Below, piece after piece: positions 4,745 to 11,202 of a stretch of 39,103 bases of DNA. Origin of the DNA: Desulfitobacteriaceae bacterium. GTDB lineage: Bacteria; Bacillota; Dehalobacteriia; Dehalobacteriales; Dehalobacteriaceae. A program made the position numbers and the translations under genes. Every line of letters starts with the position of its first letter. Within the stretch, counting starts at the first letter, position 1. The notes below the pieces were generated by a model. That model was not told the origin of the DNA. It was given only the letters and a program-made list of their open reading frames with translations, and made no database searches. The stretch covers positions 1-39,103 of the forward strand of contig JAQVXR010000005.1 of the NCBI GenBank assembly GCA_028709045.1. The letters run 5' to 3'.

Positions 4745-4787
4745 ATATTTCGCAAGCTAATGTCGCTCTCAAAAATAAAATTTATAT

Positions 4788-4862
4788 GCTACTGTGGCTC
4801 AGGGGTAGAGCAGCGCACTCGTAATGCGCAGGTCGTCGGTTCAAATCCGACCAGTAGCTCCA
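4788..4862 (+). tRNA. tRNA-Thr (anticodon CGU)
   Basis: A complete 75-nt cloverleaf. The acceptor stem GCTACTG (4788-4794) pairs with CAGTAGC (4852-4858), the D stem is GCTC/GAGC, and the anticodon stem GCGCA/TGCGC encloses loop CTCGTAA, giving anticodon CGT, which reads ACG. The T arm is GTCGG-TTCAAAT-CCGAC. The discriminator is T and CCA is encoded (4860-4862). It has U36 and A37, the determinants for t6A modification. It is the only tRNA in the window, lies on the strand opposite to nearly all genes, and is followed directly by a strong terminator. Confidence 0.96.
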
Positions 4863-4865
4863 ATG

Positions 4866-4902
4866 AAAAAACCTCCGGTATGATAGCTTCCGGAGGTTTT
4901 TT
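4866..4902 (+). terminator. Terminator of the tRNA-Thr gene (reads as bidirectional)
   Basis: CCTCCGG (4872-4878) pairs with CCGGAGG (4890-4896). The stem is flanked by an A run on the left and a T run on the right, so it can terminate on either strand. It begins four bases after the tRNA CCA. The open frame of the adjacent substrate-binding-protein remnant runs straight into it. Confidence 0.85.
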
Positions 4903-5243
4903 ATATCAGGGTCCCACTGAATTATCTTTTCCTTATCTAGCATAATGGACCCGGTTCTGCCGGTTTCATCAACTACATTTTTAGCATTGATAGCTTCCAG
5001 TAATGCATATTTACCCTGTGTACTTTCAATTCCGTGAGTTCCCCTGAAACTTAATGCGCCAACATATACACTGGGTTTCTCATCATCAGGAATACCCTTT
5101 GTTCGCTCATCCAAATCACTTCTGCATTCTTCCATGTAATCAATAATTCTCTGGGCAGCCTGCTCTTCAATAATATCAGCAGGATAATAGTCGCTTTTTT
5201 TTGCCTGTATATTGCCGGTAGGTACCCTCCGACTGTCCTTGTT
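4903..5243 (-). pseudogene. Remnant of an iron/siderophore ABC transporter substrate-binding protein
   Basis: About 113 codons are open on the minus strand between an in-frame TGA (5244-5246) and the tRNA terminator. The translation contains YYPADIIEEQAAQRI, then YVGALSFRGTHGIEST, INAKNVVDETG, MLDKEKI and WDPDI. These are typical of the middle of PF01497-type periplasmic binding proteins for Fe-siderophores or cobalamin (300+ aa, usually with a lipoprotein signal). The N-terminal lobe and the C-terminal lobe after WDPDI are missing. A GGAAGGAA-ATG just after trmO (ATG at 5257) reads MTNNETRTVGG in another frame and may be the original start, now out of frame. The piece is certainly non-functional; the family call rests on motifs. 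Confidence 0.65.
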
Positions 5244-5275
5244 TCATTGTTTGTCATTTCCTTCCTATCCCATCC

Positions 5276-5704
5276 TCATTCCGGTTTTATCCAGCCAGTC
5301 TCTCTGCTCTCAATACCGTCAAGTCGAAAAGAATAAGGTTTAATATCTAAAAGCGGGCTGCCATCAAAGGCGTCAACACCATTAACACGAAGCATCATGC
5401 CCTCCCGCCCGATAAGTTCTCCAATACAAAATGCAATAGGATTGGGACGGTTCGGTGTCCGGCAGGCAAAAACGCCCCGGATCTCCGGTCCCCATGGGGT
5501 CTGGGTTTTAAGAACACTTCGGTCAGCCCGATCACCCCAGTACAAAATTATAAGATACCTTGATTTTTCCACATCTTTAAGTCCTGAAGCAAATTGAGGA
5601 AATATTTCCAGATCCACCGTCTCCTCAGAAAATCTTCCTTGAAAAGGAGCTTTAATTTTTTCATTGTACGGGCTGTGGATCTTTCCTATTGGTGTTAAAT
5701 ACAT
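5276..5704 (-). CDS. trmO: TrmO/TsaA-family tRNA (t6A37) methyltransferase
   Basis: The family (PF01980) uses SAM to N6-methylate threonylcarbamoyl-adenosine 37 of tRNA, characterised for E. coli tRNA-Thr. The 142-aa protein matches the beta-barrel core: start YLTPIGKIHSPY, then SRYLIILYWGDRAD, the invariant RTPNRPNPI stretch (about residues 83-91), and GVDAFDGSPLLDIKPY near the C-terminus. The C-terminal extension of the E. coli enzyme is absent, as in many Firmicute and archaeal homologues. These are often found beside iron or cobalamin ABC transporter genes, which fits the adjacent remnant. AAAGGAAA and a G run precede the ATG. Confidence 0.85.
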   Translation of the reverse strand: MYLTPIGKIHSPYNEKIKAPFQGRFSEETVDLEIFPQFASGLKDVEKSRYLIILYWGDRADRSVLKTQTPWGPEIRGVFACRTPNRPNPIAFCIGELIGREGMMLRVNGVDAFDGSPLLDIKPYSFRLDGIESRETGWIKPE

Positions 5705-5731
5705 TTTCCTTTACCCCCCCAAAAACAAAAT

Positions 5732-5775
5732 GCCACCAAGGTAACCTCCTTCTGGAAGTTTCACACCTTCGTGGC
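5732..5775 (-). promoter_or_regulatory. Long hairpin in the trmO leader
   Basis: On the minus strand an 11-bp outer stem (GCCACGAAGGT / ACCTTGGTGGC, one mismatch) and a 7-bp inner stem (AACTTCC / GGAGGTT, one wobble) stack with a 4-base one-sided bulge GTGA and an AGAA loop. It ends about 28 bases before the trmO ATG, with no T run after it. I do not recognise it as a known riboswitch. The rest of 5776-5923 is AT-rich with no gene. Confidence 0.5.
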
Positions 5776-5923
5776 GTAATTTAAAATATAATTTTATAAT
5801 AATTATAAATTACTAGCTTAACCTATATAAAATTTTTCGCCGTTCGACTAAAATTACCTTCCGTATATTATATCATTTATTTGTCGCACTTATGAATCTG
5901 TCGGGACATAAATTTAAACATGA

Positions 5924-7111
5924 TTAACTGTCCGTCAGATATCCTTCCTCTTTTAAAGCCTCATTTACCATCTCTTTATCTGTCAGCTTGATTTCAACAC
6001 CGGCATCAGAAAACACGTATAACGGGCCTTTGCCTCCAAAGTTATTTTTTAGAAACAGGATATCAATATGATGCTTATTAAGCATTTCCGCCGCCAGAAT
6101 CCCTTTCCCATGTTCTGCCACGGAAAAAGGATTAGCTACAGTCTCTGTTTGCAAAATTATCTTACTTTCTCTATCCACAAAAACCAGAAGAAAAAAAGGA
6201 GCTTCACCAAAATGTGAAGAAATCTCATTCCCTTCCGTATTTTCTAAGGGTATGGCTAAAACAAGGTTTTTCTTTTGCACAGGTTCGTAATGAATTAAAA
6301 CCCTGTCCACATTTTTTATGGCATCTTTAATCTTATTCTCTATCCGAGTTATGATAAAATGGGCTTTGTCCAAATCATTTGTATTAACTACAATGGTAGC
6401 TTCAATAAATTTGTAACGTCCTGAATTGCGCCCAGTAATACTTTTGATTCCCATTATCTGGGGTTCGCAGACAATTAATTTTTCCGCCTCACTTAAAGTC
6501 TCATGGTCAAGGGATGCGTCAAGGAGTACCCGGACAGCATCAATTAAAATTTTTCCTCCTGCCCAGACAATAAACCCGGCGATTAAAATAGTTGCCACCC
6601 TATCAAAGTCGATCTGTATATAATTTGCCAAGAGAGCTGCAACTACAATTAAATTAGCTAAAAGATCCACCCTAATATGCTCTGCATCAGCCACCAGGCT
6701 TGGTGAATTCATTTCAAGCCCTACTTTTCTTTCATAGCGGGAAAATGTATATGCTATCACAACCATGAGAAGAACGCCGCCGATGGCTATCCCACTGTAT
6801 CTTATTTCACCGGTACCTCCACTGAAAGCACCGAGAACGATTTCATACCCGGCAAAAAGAATAAGAATAGCCACAAAAACCGACACCAGATTTTCAATTT
6901 TATAAAGACCATAGGGAAACATGCGAGTTTTACGGTTGGCAATAAGCAAGCCCCCTAAAACCGTAGAAGATGCCACGACATCTAAAAGAGAATGAAATGC
7001 TTCGGCCCGAAGAGCCATACTGCCGGAATAATGGGCTAAAACATATTTGAAGCCGAACATAAAAACATTGACGGCTACAGCCAACATAGCAACCCGTTCC
7101 CCTTTAGACAT
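5924..7111 (-). CDS. Cation diffusion facilitator transporter with C-terminal NifX/NifB-like domain
   Basis: A divalent metal:proton antiporter of the CDF family that exports metal from the cytoplasm. Six membrane helices occupy about residues 5-205. Likely metal ligands are HSLLD in helix 2 and HIRVD in helix 5, the zinc-type HxxxD pattern rather than DxxxD. A ferredoxin-like CDF cytoplasmic domain follows (about 205-280). The last ~110 residues (from VLAIPLENTEGNEISSHFGEAPFF) match the dinitrogenase iron-molybdenum cofactor family (PF02579), a cofactor- or metal-cluster-binding fold. The ATG at 7111 has AAGGAG nine bases upstream; an ATG three codons earlier is too close to it. The transported metal is not determinable. 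Confidence 0.9.
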   Translation of the reverse strand: MSKGERVAMLAVAVNVFMFGFKYVLAHYSGSMALRAEAFHSLLDVVASSTVLGGLLIANRKTRMFPYGLYKIENLVSVFVAILILFAGYEIVLGAFSGGTGEIRYSGIAIGGVLLMVVIAYTFSRYERKVGLEMNSPSLVADAEHIRVDLLANLIVVAALLANYIQIDFDRVATILIAGFIVWAGGKILIDAVRVLLDASLDHETLSEAEKLIVCEPQIMGIKSITGRNSGRYKFIEATIVVNTNDLDKAHFIITRIENKIKDAIKNVDRVLIHYEPVQKKNLVLAIPLENTEGNEISSHFGEAPFFLLVFVDRESKIILQTETVANPFSVAEHGKGILAAEMLNKHHIDILFLKNNFGGKGPLYVFSDAGVEIKLTDKEMVNEALKEEGYLTDS

Positions 7112-7155
7112 TGTCGGCATCTCCTTTTTTTCTACAGCTTATCAGATGTCAACTC

Positions 7156-7365
7156 TTAACCACATTTACTGTATCCGCAGGAACGACACAAAACACATCC
7201 CCCATCATGCTCCAACTGCCCTCCACATTCAGGACAACGGGCCGTTCCAAGTTCTCGGTTACGGTAATGATTTTGCCCTTTCTGCGACCCATCATGATAT
7301 ACGGTTATTACTTTACATACCAGTTTATGTACGGTTATAAACGCTTCTTTAATATCATTAGGCAA
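7156..7365 (-). pseudogene. C-terminal remnant resembling class II ribonucleotide reductase (NrdJ) zinc-ribbon tail
   Basis: A 69-residue frame. The first half, [25 protein letters not shown], parallels the end of the NrdJ catalytic domain (consensus near CKGITVYRDGS). The second half, [25 protein letters not shown], matches the four-cysteine tail of adenosylcobalamin-dependent reductases. No catalytic core is present. The frame begins at TTG and overlaps the end of the radical SAM gene by 8 bases, so it could be translated as a coupled small zinc-ribbon protein. I favour a truncated copy left by a deletion; the alternative is a functional stand-alone zinc ribbon. Confidence 0.5.
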
Positions 7366-8314
7366 AGCATTCCTGGGACCGTCCGATTTTTCTCACATAG
7401 TATTTTATTGAGTTATAATCGACTTCAACAAGACTCTGGTCTTGAATCAATTTTTCTACAACACTCCACTGAGCTTGACATTTAGCCAAAAGTTCCCGGA
7501 CAGCTTCCTCTCGCATAGGATGGACGGAAGTAATGCTCATCAAATCTTTTTCTGCACACCCGGTAGAAGCAAAAGCATTTCCCTCATAACCAGTTAAATA
7601 TTCCACACAATCAATTTTTTGGCTAAAAATCTGATACGCCAAATTTATTTTTTCTTCGCCCGGACAAATCACTTTTTTTTCTGCCGGAGGTCTTACCGGT
7701 ATGGAAATATAAGCTACAGCAGGATTAATTTCTCCTAAAAATTCCGCTACATGAGATAATGATTGTTCATTATCATTAATGTCTTTCACCAGCATTGTTT
7801 CCGTTACTAAGGTTCCTAAATATTCCCGGGAAAACAATTTGATCCCTTCTAAAATCTTAGCCAATTCCAAGTTCTTATGGGGGCGATCGATCTGACGCCA
7901 TATGGTATAGTCGACAGAATCCACTTTAAGAGATACCCAGTCTGCTTTAGAAAGTGCCTTTCTCACATCTCCCCTAGTTATCAGTGATGCGTTACTTATT
8001 ACTGCAGTTTTAAACAGCAAATCACTCATCAAATCCAGCATCTTTTCCAGATTGATATCGATCGTTGGTTCCCCGGTAGCAACAAAGGTAAGGTAATCTA
8101 CCTTGTTGCCGTATTTTTTTAAGATATCTAATTGATCAGTGACCTTTTTAAAAACGGTATCATGATCGCCAAATTTTTGCCGCTCTGTTTGCATTTTTTT
8201 TGTTCGTCCTAACTGACAATAAACACAGTTATAGGAACACACTTTCGGGGCAATATTATTGATACCCAGGCTATTGCCTAACCGCCGGGAAGGTACCGGT
8301 CCAAAAACAATCAT
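7358..8314 (-). CDS. Radical SAM protein of the COG0731 group
   Basis: 318 aa. It opens with [15 protein letters not shown], diagnostic of this group, followed by [11 protein letters not shown], the CxxxCxxC that binds the SAM-cleaving 4Fe-4S cluster (about residues 27-34). The partial TIM barrel includes the GEPT motif (about 85). The group is often labelled wyosine-synthetase-like because of distant similarity to TYW1, but bacterial members have no established substrate. The ATG at 8314 has AAGGGGCGG upstream. It lies 60 bases after the split-barrel gene and 130 after the IscU-like gene, so an operon with an Fe-S scaffold is plausible. Confidence 0.85.
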
Positions 8315-8374
8315 ATTTATCCGCCCCTTACGAGTAAATAATTTTTCGGTAAAACATCATTCCTGCCCAGTGAT

Positions 8375-8776
8375 TTAAAGTTCCCGCCCAATATCAGGAC
8401 CTGGTTGGCACACATAAACATGAGTCACTTTCATTAATAGAGCAGTTTTTGGCGTTAATTGGGACAACACCCCTTGTACCCATTTTATCGTTTCATCAAA
8501 AACATTTCCTGATTTTAAAATAGTAACTTCTCCTTTAATTTGATAAGCCTGTTTATTTTCCGAGTCCCAAACACAAATAGCCATCTGAGGATTTTCCTCT
8601 AAATTGGCGATACTCTTTTGCATAAAATTATCAGCTAATAAAAGCGCATCGTCCCCATAACATTTGACAAAAGCGAAGGGAATCACATTAGGGACACCCT
8701 CTTTAGAAGCTGTTGCCACCGGAAAAGTTTTTGTTTGAGAAATAACCTTCTTTACATCTTCATTAAGTTTTGCCAT
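8375..8776 (-). CDS. Pyridoxamine 5'-phosphate oxidase-related FMN split-barrel protein
   Basis: A 133-aa protein of the PNPOx-like flavin-binding split barrel (PF01243-type). Features are FPVATASKEGVPNVIPFAFVKCYGDDALLLADNF (strands 1-3) and ENPQMAICVWD, followed by an ITILKSG-type strand. Members bind FMN or F420 and reduce small molecules; this short form is not PdxH and has no known substrate. AGGGAG precedes the ATG by seven bases. It lies between the IscU-like and radical SAM genes in the same orientation. Confidence 0.85.
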   Translation of the reverse strand: MAKLNEDVKKVISQTKTFPVATASKEGVPNVIPFAFVKCYGDDALLLADNFMQKSIANLEENPQMAICVWDSENKQAYQIKGEVTILKSGNVFDETIKWVQGVLSQLTPKTALLMKVTHVYVCQPGPDIGREL

Positions 8777-8851
8777 GTTAATCTCCCTTTCTTTTTTGTA
8801 TTATTAAATTTTTTTTGATAAGCAATCATCCTATCCTCATTGGATATTATC

Positions 8852-9229
8852 CTATGCATCACTGTTATTTTCGTAATAATTTAGAATGGCATTTTTTAAT
8901 GCTGCCGCTCCCATCACCGAACAATGTATTTTTTCTTCCGGCAACCCCCCTAATGCATCAACAATATCGTTTTCCTTGATCTTGAGAGCTTCATCCAAGG
9001 TCTTTCCCTTAGCTAAAATTGTGGTCATACTGCTGGAAGCAATAGCTGCGCAGCAACCTATCACTTGAAAAGAAATATCTTTGATAATATTATCTTCCAC
9101 TTTAATGTACAGTTTCAAATGATCACCGCAATGAGGATCTCCTCCTTCTCCTATTCCATTTGAATTTTCAATAACCCCAACATTTTCCGGATCAAGGAAA
9201 AGTTCCATTACTTTCATGTTGTACCACAT
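8852..9229 (-). CDS. IscU/NifU N-terminal type Fe-S cluster scaffold
   Basis: A 125-aa scaffold on which Fe-S clusters are built from sulfur supplied by a cysteine desulfurase. The three ligand cysteines and the conserved Asp are present: GGDPHCGD (Cys34, Asp36), GCCAAIASSS (Cys59/60) and KIHCSVMG (Cys103). There is no NifU-type C-terminal domain. The usual LPPVK loop is replaced by LPEEK, so interaction with an HscA-type chaperone is doubtful. GGAGG lies nine bases before the ATG. No cysteine desulfurase is adjacent; the nearest is at 16235-17407. A clear sigma-54 promoter sits about 110 bases upstream. Confidence 0.92.
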   Translation of the reverse strand: MWYNMKVMELFLDPENVGVIENSNGIGEGGDPHCGDHLKLYIKVEDNIIKDISFQVIGCCAAIASSSMTTILAKGKTLDEALKIKENDIVDALGGLPEEKIHCSVMGAAALKNAILNYYENNSDA

Positions 9230-9335
9230 CGGCTTTCGCCTCCATTTTTTAAAATAAATTTATCTAATACTAAGTTGTCATCAGGCAGGACTTGAATTTG
9301 AATTTAATAATTATTAATCACCTTATATAAGTATA

Positions 9336-9352
9336 AGCAAATACTATGCCAA
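9336..9352 (-). promoter_or_regulatory. Sigma-54 (-24/-12) promoter upstream of the IscU-like gene
   Basis: Minus strand TTGGCATAGTATTTGCT gives TTGGCA, then TTGCT, with the invariant GG and GC exactly 10 bases apart. Transcription should start about 12 bases past the GC, leaving a leader of about 95 bases. Sigma-54 promoters need an AAA+ activator; none is encoded in this window. The rest of 9230-9430 shows no gene. Confidence 0.75.
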
Positions 9353-9430
9353 ATTGATAACACACCAAATCACCTGTTAAATAGGGATAACGGAGTAGTC
9401 AAATTTTAATACAGGGCACAGAATCAACCT

Positions 9431-9457
9431 AAAAAACCACTCCTCAAGAGAAGTGGT
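9431..9457 (-). terminator. Second of two tandem terminators after the HAD gene
   Basis: Minus strand ACCACTTCT / AGGAGTGGT (one wobble), CTTG loop, then TTTTTT. It insulates the IscU-like promoter from the glycan cassette. Confidence 0.8.
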
Positions 9458-9502
9458 CAACAAAGCATCTAATTTAATTTGTAGACAAATAGAGTTGGGT
9501 TC

Positions 9503-9529
9503 AAAACAAACCCTCTTTTTCAAAAGGGT
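9503..9529 (-). terminator. First terminator after the HAD gene
   Basis: Minus strand ACCCTTTT / AAGAGGGT with one wobble and a GAAA loop, followed by TTTGTTTT. It lies 28 bases after the HAD stop codon. Confidence 0.75.
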
Positions 9530-9556
9530 CTATAATAGTCCCTCAGGCCCACTTTA

Positions 9557-10222
9557 TTATCTAATTAATTCGTGAAACCCAAACAATGAATCCACTACCT
9601 TCTTTGCTTGATACGGAGGATCCATAACTCGATTGGTACATTGTCCCTCTTTTCTTTTCACTTGAACAGTATCCCAGCCCAGCACATTGGGAGCAGCAAA
9701 ATCCTTTTCCGGGTTATCCCCAATGTAAACACAGTCTTCCCCGGTACATCGAAAATACTCCATCACTTTTTGGAAAGGAACAAGGCTTGGCTTCCAACAT
9801 TCTCTGCCGTATTGATCCGAAAAAATAATCAGCTCAAAAAACTTCTCCAGCCCTAATGCCTGCACCTTTTTCTTTTGAACATCCAAATATCCATCAGTGA
9901 TAAGAGCTAATTTAACTCCTTTTAAATTTTCCAAAATCCATTTTGCATCATCATAAAGCTGAATGGACGGCAGGTGCTCCCGATAAACTCCGACCAGCTT
10001 TTCTATGAGCAATTTACTTGAACCCAGATTTAGATGTTTTGCCGCTTGGTTAAAAATATCTCCTCTTTTTCCTTCATCAAACAACTTAATTGCAGTATCA
10101 TAAAAACCTTCTTGCCCTAAGTTTGCCAATACCCATCGGTCAACAGCGGCAAAACCGCTTCGCACAAATCGAGCTTCAGGATATAATGTGTCGTCCAAAT
10201 CAAAGACAGCTATCTTAATCAT
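9557..10222 (-). CDS. HAD-superfamily hydrolase
   Basis: A 221-aa haloacid-dehalogenase-fold phosphatase. Motif I is FDLDDTLY (nucleophile Asp8, acid Asp10), motif II is LITDG (about 113-117), motif III Lys lies in ECWKPS, and motif IV is YIGDNPEKDF. An alpha-helical C1 cap lies between motifs I and II. The start ATG overlaps the upstream ATP-grasp stop as ATGA, so the two are translationally coupled. As the last gene of a three-gene set with an ATP-grasp and a lipid-linked sugar transferase, it is probably a phosphatase for a sugar or nucleotide-sugar intermediate. The substrate is an inference. Confidence 0.85.
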   Translation of the reverse strand: MIKIAVFDLDDTLYPEARFVRSGFAAVDRWVLANLGQEGFYDTAIKLFDEGKRGDIFNQAAKHLNLGSSKLLIEKLVGVYREHLPSIQLYDDAKWILENLKGVKLALITDGYLDVQKKKVQALGLEKFFELIIFSDQYGRECWKPSLVPFQKVMEYFRCTGEDCVYIGDNPEKDFAAPNVLGWDTVQVKRKEGQCTNRVMDPPYQAKKVVDSLFGFHELIR

Positions 10223-11202
10223 AGAATCATATCCCTGGTAAGAAAAATTGCATCATCATAACGAAGCATGACAACCCCATCTTTCCAACCATCAAACACG
10301 ATCACCGGGTTTTCTCCCAGCATCATCTGTAAAATCCAACTGGGGTAATCTGCCCCGGCTTGAATGGAAAGGGGGAACCCTCCTCCAAACCTTGGGTTTA
10401 TTTCAGTCACCTTAATTTGTCCCTCATAAGTTAAAAATAACTGGACGGTAATGCACCCTAAAGCACCCGGTAAGTTTTCCGCTACCTTTTGACCGATAAA
10501 CATTATTTCATAATTTTTAACGGTGATCCCTTTACTTACTTCACCTGCTCTTGTTTCAATGCGTAGCCGGGGGACGACGCATCTTACCTTGCCTTGAAGA
10601 TCTACCAGTACATCCAGGGTGTACTCATCACCGAAAACAAATTCCTGAACGATGGGATCATTCACATAAGATAAAAAAAATTCCAGCTCCCTGGCATTTC
10701 TAATTTTTGTCACCCCGTTACTGCCGCTGCCGGAAGCAGGCTTGATCAATAACGGGTAACGAAGATGGGTATTTTCTAAATTATCGTTGAATGAAATCAT
10801 TTCCGGAGTACTCACGCCCAAACTTCTTAAAAAGGCGTCGGTATTTCTTTTATCAAAACTTATTTCCGTAGTCTCCGGAGATGAAACGAGAATAGTAACT
10901 CCGATTCTCCTAAACTCCTCTTTAACTCTGGATAGAGCCCCCAGCTCCGTGTCTATCAAAGGAATCAGCAGTTTAATTTTGTAGCGGATGCATATTTCTT
11001 TTAAAATTTTTAAATAAGATGGGTGTCCGGCGGGCGGAATTACTTCTTGAAAATCCGCAACAAAAGAGGCGGGTGCGGTTTTAAGCATGTCCGCAGAAAC
11101 AACGACTCCCTCTATCTTTAATTCTTTCATCGCCTCTTTAAAATGCCTGATCAAGGAGACTCTCCGCCCTGAACTGGTAAATAAAATATTAAACCCCTTC
11201 AT
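10219..11202 (-). CDS. ATP-grasp family enzyme (carbamoyl-phosphate-synthase-like)
   Basis: 327 aa. An N-terminal Rossmann-like subdomain starts NILFTSSGRRVSLIRHF, a motif shared by carbamoyl-phosphate-synthase-like ATP-grasp proteins in surface-polysaccharide loci. The ATP-grasp fold follows: KRNTDAFLRSLGVSTPE, LLIKPASGSGSNGVTK (ATP-binding lysine and Gly-rich loop, about 145-160), EFVFGDEYTLDVLVD, and Mg-binding EINPRFGGGFPLS (about 272-284). Such enzymes ligate a carboxylate to an amine via acyl-phosphate. ATGA overlaps at both ends place it tightly between the sugar transferase and HAD genes. The target, perhaps amino-acid decoration of a glycan, is inferred. Confidence 0.85.
   Translation of the reverse strand: MKGFNILFTSSGRRVSLIRHFKEAMKELKIEGVVVSADMLKTAPASFVADFQEVIPPAGHPSYLKILKEICIRYKIKLLIPLIDTELGALSRVKEEFRRIGVTILVSSPETTEISFDKRNTDAFLRSLGVSTPEMISFNDNLENTHLRYPLLIKPASGSGSNGVTKIRNARELEFFLSYVNDPIVQEFVFGDEYTLDVLVDLQGKVRCVVPRLRIETRAGEVSKGITVKNYEIMFIGQKVAENLPGALGCITVQLFLTYEGQIKVTEINPRFGGGFPLSIQAGADYPSWILQMMLGENPVIVFDGWKDGVVMLRYDDAIFLTRDMIL

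Follow-up and report, generated by a model that had tools for sequence, protein, structure and literature searches.

A predicted sigma-54 promoter before an IscU-like gene and its probable place in an ORP-type regulon of a Dehalobacteriaceae bacterium

A gene for an IscU-like scaffold protein in a bacterium of the Dehalobacteriaceae lies behind a predicted sigma-54 promoter, and the transcription unit it opens is probably the detached second part of a sigma-54 regulon of the ORP type (NifX/Mrp/MinD), run by an activator that is encoded on another contig, C287. The sequence analysed, referred to here as the window, spans contig C139 from end to end (39,103 nt) in an assembly of 2.8 Mb and 305 contigs, in which the order and completeness of the units are not certain. 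At the level of sequence, the reading is supported by the promoter core, the rpoN gene, the activator gene, the same tandem dyads at both units of the regulon, the retention of both dyad and promoter by relatives, and the ORP-type ancestry of the IscU and of the FMN split-barrel protein encoded behind it.

The promoter core is TGGCATAGTATTTGCT at 9351-9336 on the minus strand, which is preceded by a T and hence extends to TTGGCA-N6-TTGCT (9352-9336), with ten bases separating the GG (9350-9349) from the GC (9338-9337). It matches the sigma-54 consensus TGGCAYRN4TTGCW perfectly, the consensus flanks included. Transcription is predicted to start at about 9325 (-), 12 nt beyond the GC, which would give a leader of 96 nt before the iscU-like gene, whose ATG at 9229 is preceded by a GGAGG ribosome site. 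The genome holds one copy of rpoN (contig C142; Sigma54_DBD, 9e-63), so that the objection foreseen in the sequence-only reading, a genome lacking this gene, falls away.

Tandem dyads and the candidate activator

Upstream of the core lie two putative enhancer-like dyads of 17 bp on the minus strand, within 9497-9542. Dyad 1, GGGACTATTATAGACCC (9542-9526), has its centre 183 nt upstream of the TGG (about -209), and dyad 2, GGGTTTGTTTTGAACCC (9513-9497), has its centre 154 nt upstream (about -180). Both follow the pattern GGGTYNAWWWTNRACCC, as do GGGCATAAAATCAACCC and GGGCACATAATAGACCC, a tandem pair found 115 and 84 nt upstream of a sigma-54 promoter on contig C287; the centres of the pair are 29 bp apart in the window and 31 bp apart on C287. 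A weak third enhancer-like site is possible at 9414-9430 (GGGCACAGAATCAACCT in plus-strand letters), which ranks fourth in the window with a score of 11.05.

The dyad pattern was first spotted by eye, and the window sites were then held out in order to check it. A matrix trained on the C287 pair and on the sites of two relatives, G002 and G003, places the window dyads first (19.1) and second (17.6) among 39,087 positions, the next position scoring 14.3. With the C287 pair as the sole training set the window dyads rank 1 and 3, and with only the G002 and G003 sites they come out as 2 and 1. The score of the window dyads was reached in 6 Mb of simulated DNA by nine single sites and by no pair within 60 bp, and none of the 11 other sites in the genome with a perfect sigma-54 match has a dyad score above 3.2, against 18-22 for the shared dyads. 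These matrix scans took in the window, some 145 kb of DNA from elsewhere in the same genome and the loci of relatives, while the whole genome was searched with the IUPAC pattern only. The latter search returned 7 matches against 6 for the control and thus no enrichment, and the bare GGG-N11-CCC occurs in the window at chance-level frequency. As the pattern is at control level genome-wide, the case for the dyads rests on their tandem arrangement, their position and their conservation; four of the seven genomic matches form two tandem pairs, which lie upstream of exactly the window and the C287 sigma-54 promoters.

The activator gene on C287 encodes a PAS domain with several cysteines (CRDIFHSSICDGSC), an AAA+ domain with the GAFTDA motif and a Fis-type HTH. 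It adjoins an ORP-type operon with the order NifX-Mrp-NifX-MinD-MinD-NifX, which stands behind the sigma-54 promoter and is devoid of iscU. The products are NifX-type and Mrp-type proteins, the two halves of the MrpORP model, and two Fer4-MinD ATPases; the NifX-type proteins may include one of the Orp8 type, which would carry a Mo-Cu-S cluster. With matching dyads beside it, this gene is the candidate yielded by the search for a cognate AAA+ activator, and its product is likely to control the window promoter as well.

Two members of the same family, G002 and G003, have kept activator, dyad and promoter. In G002, which had no part in defining the pattern, the dyad lies 116 nt upstream of TGGCATGATTTATGCT, a near-perfect -24/-12 element (11 of 12 consensus positions), and the dyad-promoter region is placed between nifX-mrp and the gene for an activator with 72-73% identity to that of C287. 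In G003 the dyad is again 116 nt upstream, here of the perfect -24/-12 element TGGCACAACTATTGCA, which is followed by pnpox and then, on a single strand, by other genes, nifX, genes for a Zn-ribbon and an MBL-fold protein, iscU, mrp, nifX, minD, minD and nifX, so that orthologues of both the window IscU and the window FMN split-barrel protein are found within one ORP operon. The G003 activator with 72% identity to that of C287 and with the same ELGISKGTLRRMI helix has its gene about 11 kb away. Given the single run in G003 and the lack of iscU on C287, the window unit and the operon on C287 appear to correspond to two parts of this one gene run. In G001, an orthologous activator is absent (the best match has 40% identity over the full length and 49% in the AAA+ region alone), and the ORP-type cluster, which has iscU inside it, shows no sigma-54 site or strong dyad.

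Where activators from other families have the helix GIDKTTLWRK or GIDRSTLWRK instead, the dyad differs as well, being TTGC-N5-GCAA or a close variant at 102-136 nt upstream. A change of recognition helix thus goes with a change of dyad, as it should if the dyad is a binding site. The TTGC-N5-GCAA-type dyads lie at this distance upstream of sigma-54 sites at the loci L191, L192 and L193, whose activators form a separate clade within the same activator family, which suggests a change of specificity between lineages.

No activator gene adjoins the window promoter, and the matches listed for the genome include 12 full and 2 partial sigma-54 activators. The promoter could therefore be real and yet be controlled by another of these AAA+ proteins, the likeness to the C287 dyads being coincidental. 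Against the proposed link to C287 also stands the situation in G003, where the activator gene directly beside the ORP operon encodes a different helix, ELLGISRKTLYNKIKKY, and is followed at L250:13647-13734 by a promoter of its own, a perfect sigma-54 site with a related dyad, GGGTAAAAATTATACCC (GGGT..ACCC), that precedes a long gene run with heterodisulfide-reductase-like proteins. Control by another AAA+ protein of the genome is nevertheless unlikely, since the tandem dyads are common to the window and C287 and absent at the 11 other promoters, the held-out matrix ranks the window dyads at the top, and the dyads are conserved with a C287-type activator in both G002 and G003. A second strong dyad of G003, GGGTTCAGAATGAACCC, is located 7 nt past the pnpox stop (L250:15850-15866), before xanthine-dehydrogenase-like genes, and no good -24/-12 element was found near it.

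The promoter and the region between promoter and dyads

The site at 9336-9351 is very likely a sigma-54 promoter, and there is good support for the IscU-like gene being under sigma-54 control. As the only match to TGGCAYRN4TTGCW in the 39-kb window, where shuffles lead one to expect 0.02, it bears out the -24/-12 element first read from the sequence. Genome-wide, 13 perfect matches stand against one for the reversed control pattern. Eleven of them occupy intergenic positions ahead of genes, frequently next to AAA+ activators. The other two fall within coding sequence and have the look of chance matches. Together with the expectation of roughly one perfect match per genome by chance, they are what speaks for a fortuitous match, with transcription of iscU coming from read-through or from a sigma-A promoter that went unrecognised. 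This is improbable, however, given the low expectation for the window and the right orientation and distance of the site. A consensus scan of the same strand over 9230-9560 found no sigma-70-type site at its threshold, a terminator stands upstream, and the orthologous genes of G003 are located behind the same type of promoter. No perfect -24/-12 element was found in the 400 nt upstream of 80 IscU homologues, nor in the 3-kb loci from relatives; its absence directly upstream of the homologues is explained by the regulon-bearing relative, whose gene run opens with pnpox and has the promoter before that gene and not before iscU. An Rfam search over 5000-10300 gave no match.

Two tandem terminators had been described in the sequence-only reading as isolating the promoter, and one of them holds. 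This is the hairpin at 9458-9435 (-), between the dyads and the promoter, which has a folding energy of -12.3 kcal/mol and a U6 tail and is a good intrinsic terminator, probably belonging to the upstream HAD/ATP-grasp unit. The other, 9513-9497, is identical with dyad 2. It passes a simple terminator scan, but its hairpin is weak (-7.3 kcal/mol) and lacks a U tract. The same applies to the remaining dyads of the window and of C287, which fold with -4.5 to -7.3 kcal/mol (the two window dyads marking the ends of this range) and also have no U tract, and on C287 a separate strong terminator (-16.9) follows after the dyads. Weak folding without a U tract next to a separate strong terminator argues for reading 9513-9497 as probably an enhancer site rather than a terminator. 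That the dyads act as RNA hairpins, i.e. as tandem intrinsic terminators of the upstream gene, is as improbable as a fortuitous promoter match. The scan result and the T runs that follow the strong dyads in G002 and G003 are in its favour, the latter pointing to a possible double role, but the G003 dyad is read into by no gene, the neighbouring activator being divergent.

The scaffold gene and the extent of the unit

The iscU-like gene (8852-9229, minus strand) encodes 125 aa with a NifU_N domain (1.7e-41), in which the three cluster-binding cysteines and the aspartate are present (DPHCGD, IGCCAA, KIHCS). In a tree of 115 sequences it falls into a clade of 21 leaves (support 0.97), with the ORP scaffold of G003 as its sister (support 0.82). 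This clade takes in every one of the 14 scaffolds with a link to nifX-minD-mrp clusters, and the 86 with a link to iscS or mnmA all lie outside it. The window protein also shows residues typical of the clade, for instance Val56, where 86 of 86 others have Thr. The only other iscU of the genome lies on contig C17 between iscS and mnmA, as in the housekeeping cluster of Clostridia. This housekeeping copy is homologous to the window IscU (50% identity) but belongs to a separate branch of the tree and has other signature residues, and neither a sigma-54 site nor a dyad was found near iscS-iscU-mnmA. By its phylogenetic placement the window IscU is an ORP-type scaffold and not a housekeeping one.

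Control of nifU by NifA and sigma-54 is textbook knowledge for diazotrophic proteobacteria, and contig C78 (L254/L253) of this genome carries a trio of NifH-, NifD- and NifK-like genes, which could make the scaffold a nif-type, NifA-controlled gene serving nitrogenase. This hypothesis was dropped as having next to no likelihood: the upstream activator site TGT-N10-ACA is absent from 9351-9560, there are only two clear PF00148 genes and so no separate NifE/NifN pair, and the window IscU groups with the ORP-linked scaffolds.

An FMN split-barrel (PNPOx family) gene at 8375-8776 (-), the only copy found in the genome, follows iscU after 75 nt, and a radical SAM gene at 7358-8314 (-) follows after another 60 nt, with no minus-strand terminator called from iscU to the radical SAM gene. 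These three genes are likely to form a transcription unit. Confidence is high for iscU and pnpox and moderate for the radical SAM gene, the probable third member. The proposed inclusion of the FMN split-barrel gene is supported by G003, where its orthologue comes first after the sigma-54 promoter of the ORP operon (58% identity, the next best match in G003 having 32%). For the genes further downstream the sequence-only reading stands in part, as the radical SAM gene is a likely member by its spacing and the lack of a terminator, whereas the gene for a CDF transporter fused to a C-terminal NifX-type domain (5924-7120, minus strand; Cation_efflux, ZT_dimer and Nitro_FeMo-Co) is a doubtful one, with low to moderate confidence, being separated by 237 nt and a fragment of nrdJ (class II ribonucleotide reductase). 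This fragment, a frame of 69 aa at 7156-7365 (-) which overlaps the stop codon of the radical SAM gene and matches the C-terminal model positions 726-759 of 759 (NF006417, 3.1e-12), is probably the remnant of a rearrangement. Among the loci compared, the only match to the CDF-NifX protein has 26% identity (L096), and the gene order iscU-pnpox-rSAM-CDF was not found elsewhere; within the family, no radical SAM orthologue was found near ORP genes. TrmO has sigma-70-like promoter candidates of its own. A tRNA-Thr (CGT) is located at 4788-4862 (+), and a 117-aa frame at 4782-5135 (-) is doubtful as a gene because it overlaps this tRNA.

The proposed regulon and related systems

In the proposed mechanism, the sigma-54 promoter would drive iscU, the PNPOx gene and probably the radical SAM gene, and the PAS-AAA+-HTH activator from C287 would bind the tandem dyads at both promoters. 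Looping of the DNA and hydrolysis of ATP would then allow it to open sigma-54 RNA polymerase at both, so that two distant gene groups would probably be switched on together and the scaffold would be made at the same time as the ORP proteins that it may load with clusters. The cysteine-containing PAS domain could serve to sense a metal, a cluster or the redox state. A complete circuit from sensing to assembly, in which the activator senses cluster or redox state through its PAS domain and induces the ORP machinery along with helpers dedicated to it (the IscU, FMN and radical SAM proteins), is a tentative extension of this model, and one not described for Bacillota in the literature searched.

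The actors in the maturation of ORP metalloproteins have been termed yet unknown (PMC6345978), which makes an IscU of the same regulon a natural candidate. Placed behind a putative enhancer shared with the ORP operon, the IscU described here is a candidate scaffold for these metalloproteins, and if the model is true, strict anaerobes would possess a dedicated and inducible iron-sulfur scaffold pathway. It is not clear what ORP-type NifX/Mrp/MinD clusters do physiologically, and for a little-studied family of anaerobes their regulon now has a testable DNA motif and a candidate activator. The link to an activator on another contig would also explain an otherwise orphan sigma-54 promoter.

With the NifA/sigma-54 nifUS operons of diazotrophic proteobacteria, the proposed system shares a NifU/IscU-type scaffold and an enhancer-binding protein; it differs from them in having no NifA-type sites and no NifEN pair, and its scaffold belongs to the ORP-linked clade. 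DVU2106 regulates the orp operons of Desulfovibrio, binds palindromes and works with sigma-54 (PMC3897727), and the GAFTDA variant found in the C287 activator is also listed for it (PMC4641369), while its sites are likened to the present dyads by description and not by sequence. The orp1/orp2 system of D. vulgaris with DVU2106 (PMC3897727, PMC4641369, PMC6345978) consists of two units of the NifX/Mrp/MinD type, sigma-54 and a single-component, palindrome-binding activator, as proposed here. In contrast to D. vulgaris, the host belongs to the Bacillota, the units lie on different contigs instead of being divergent neighbours, Mrp and NifX are encoded by separate genes, and genes for an IscU scaffold, an FMN split-barrel protein and a radical SAM protein make up the second unit.
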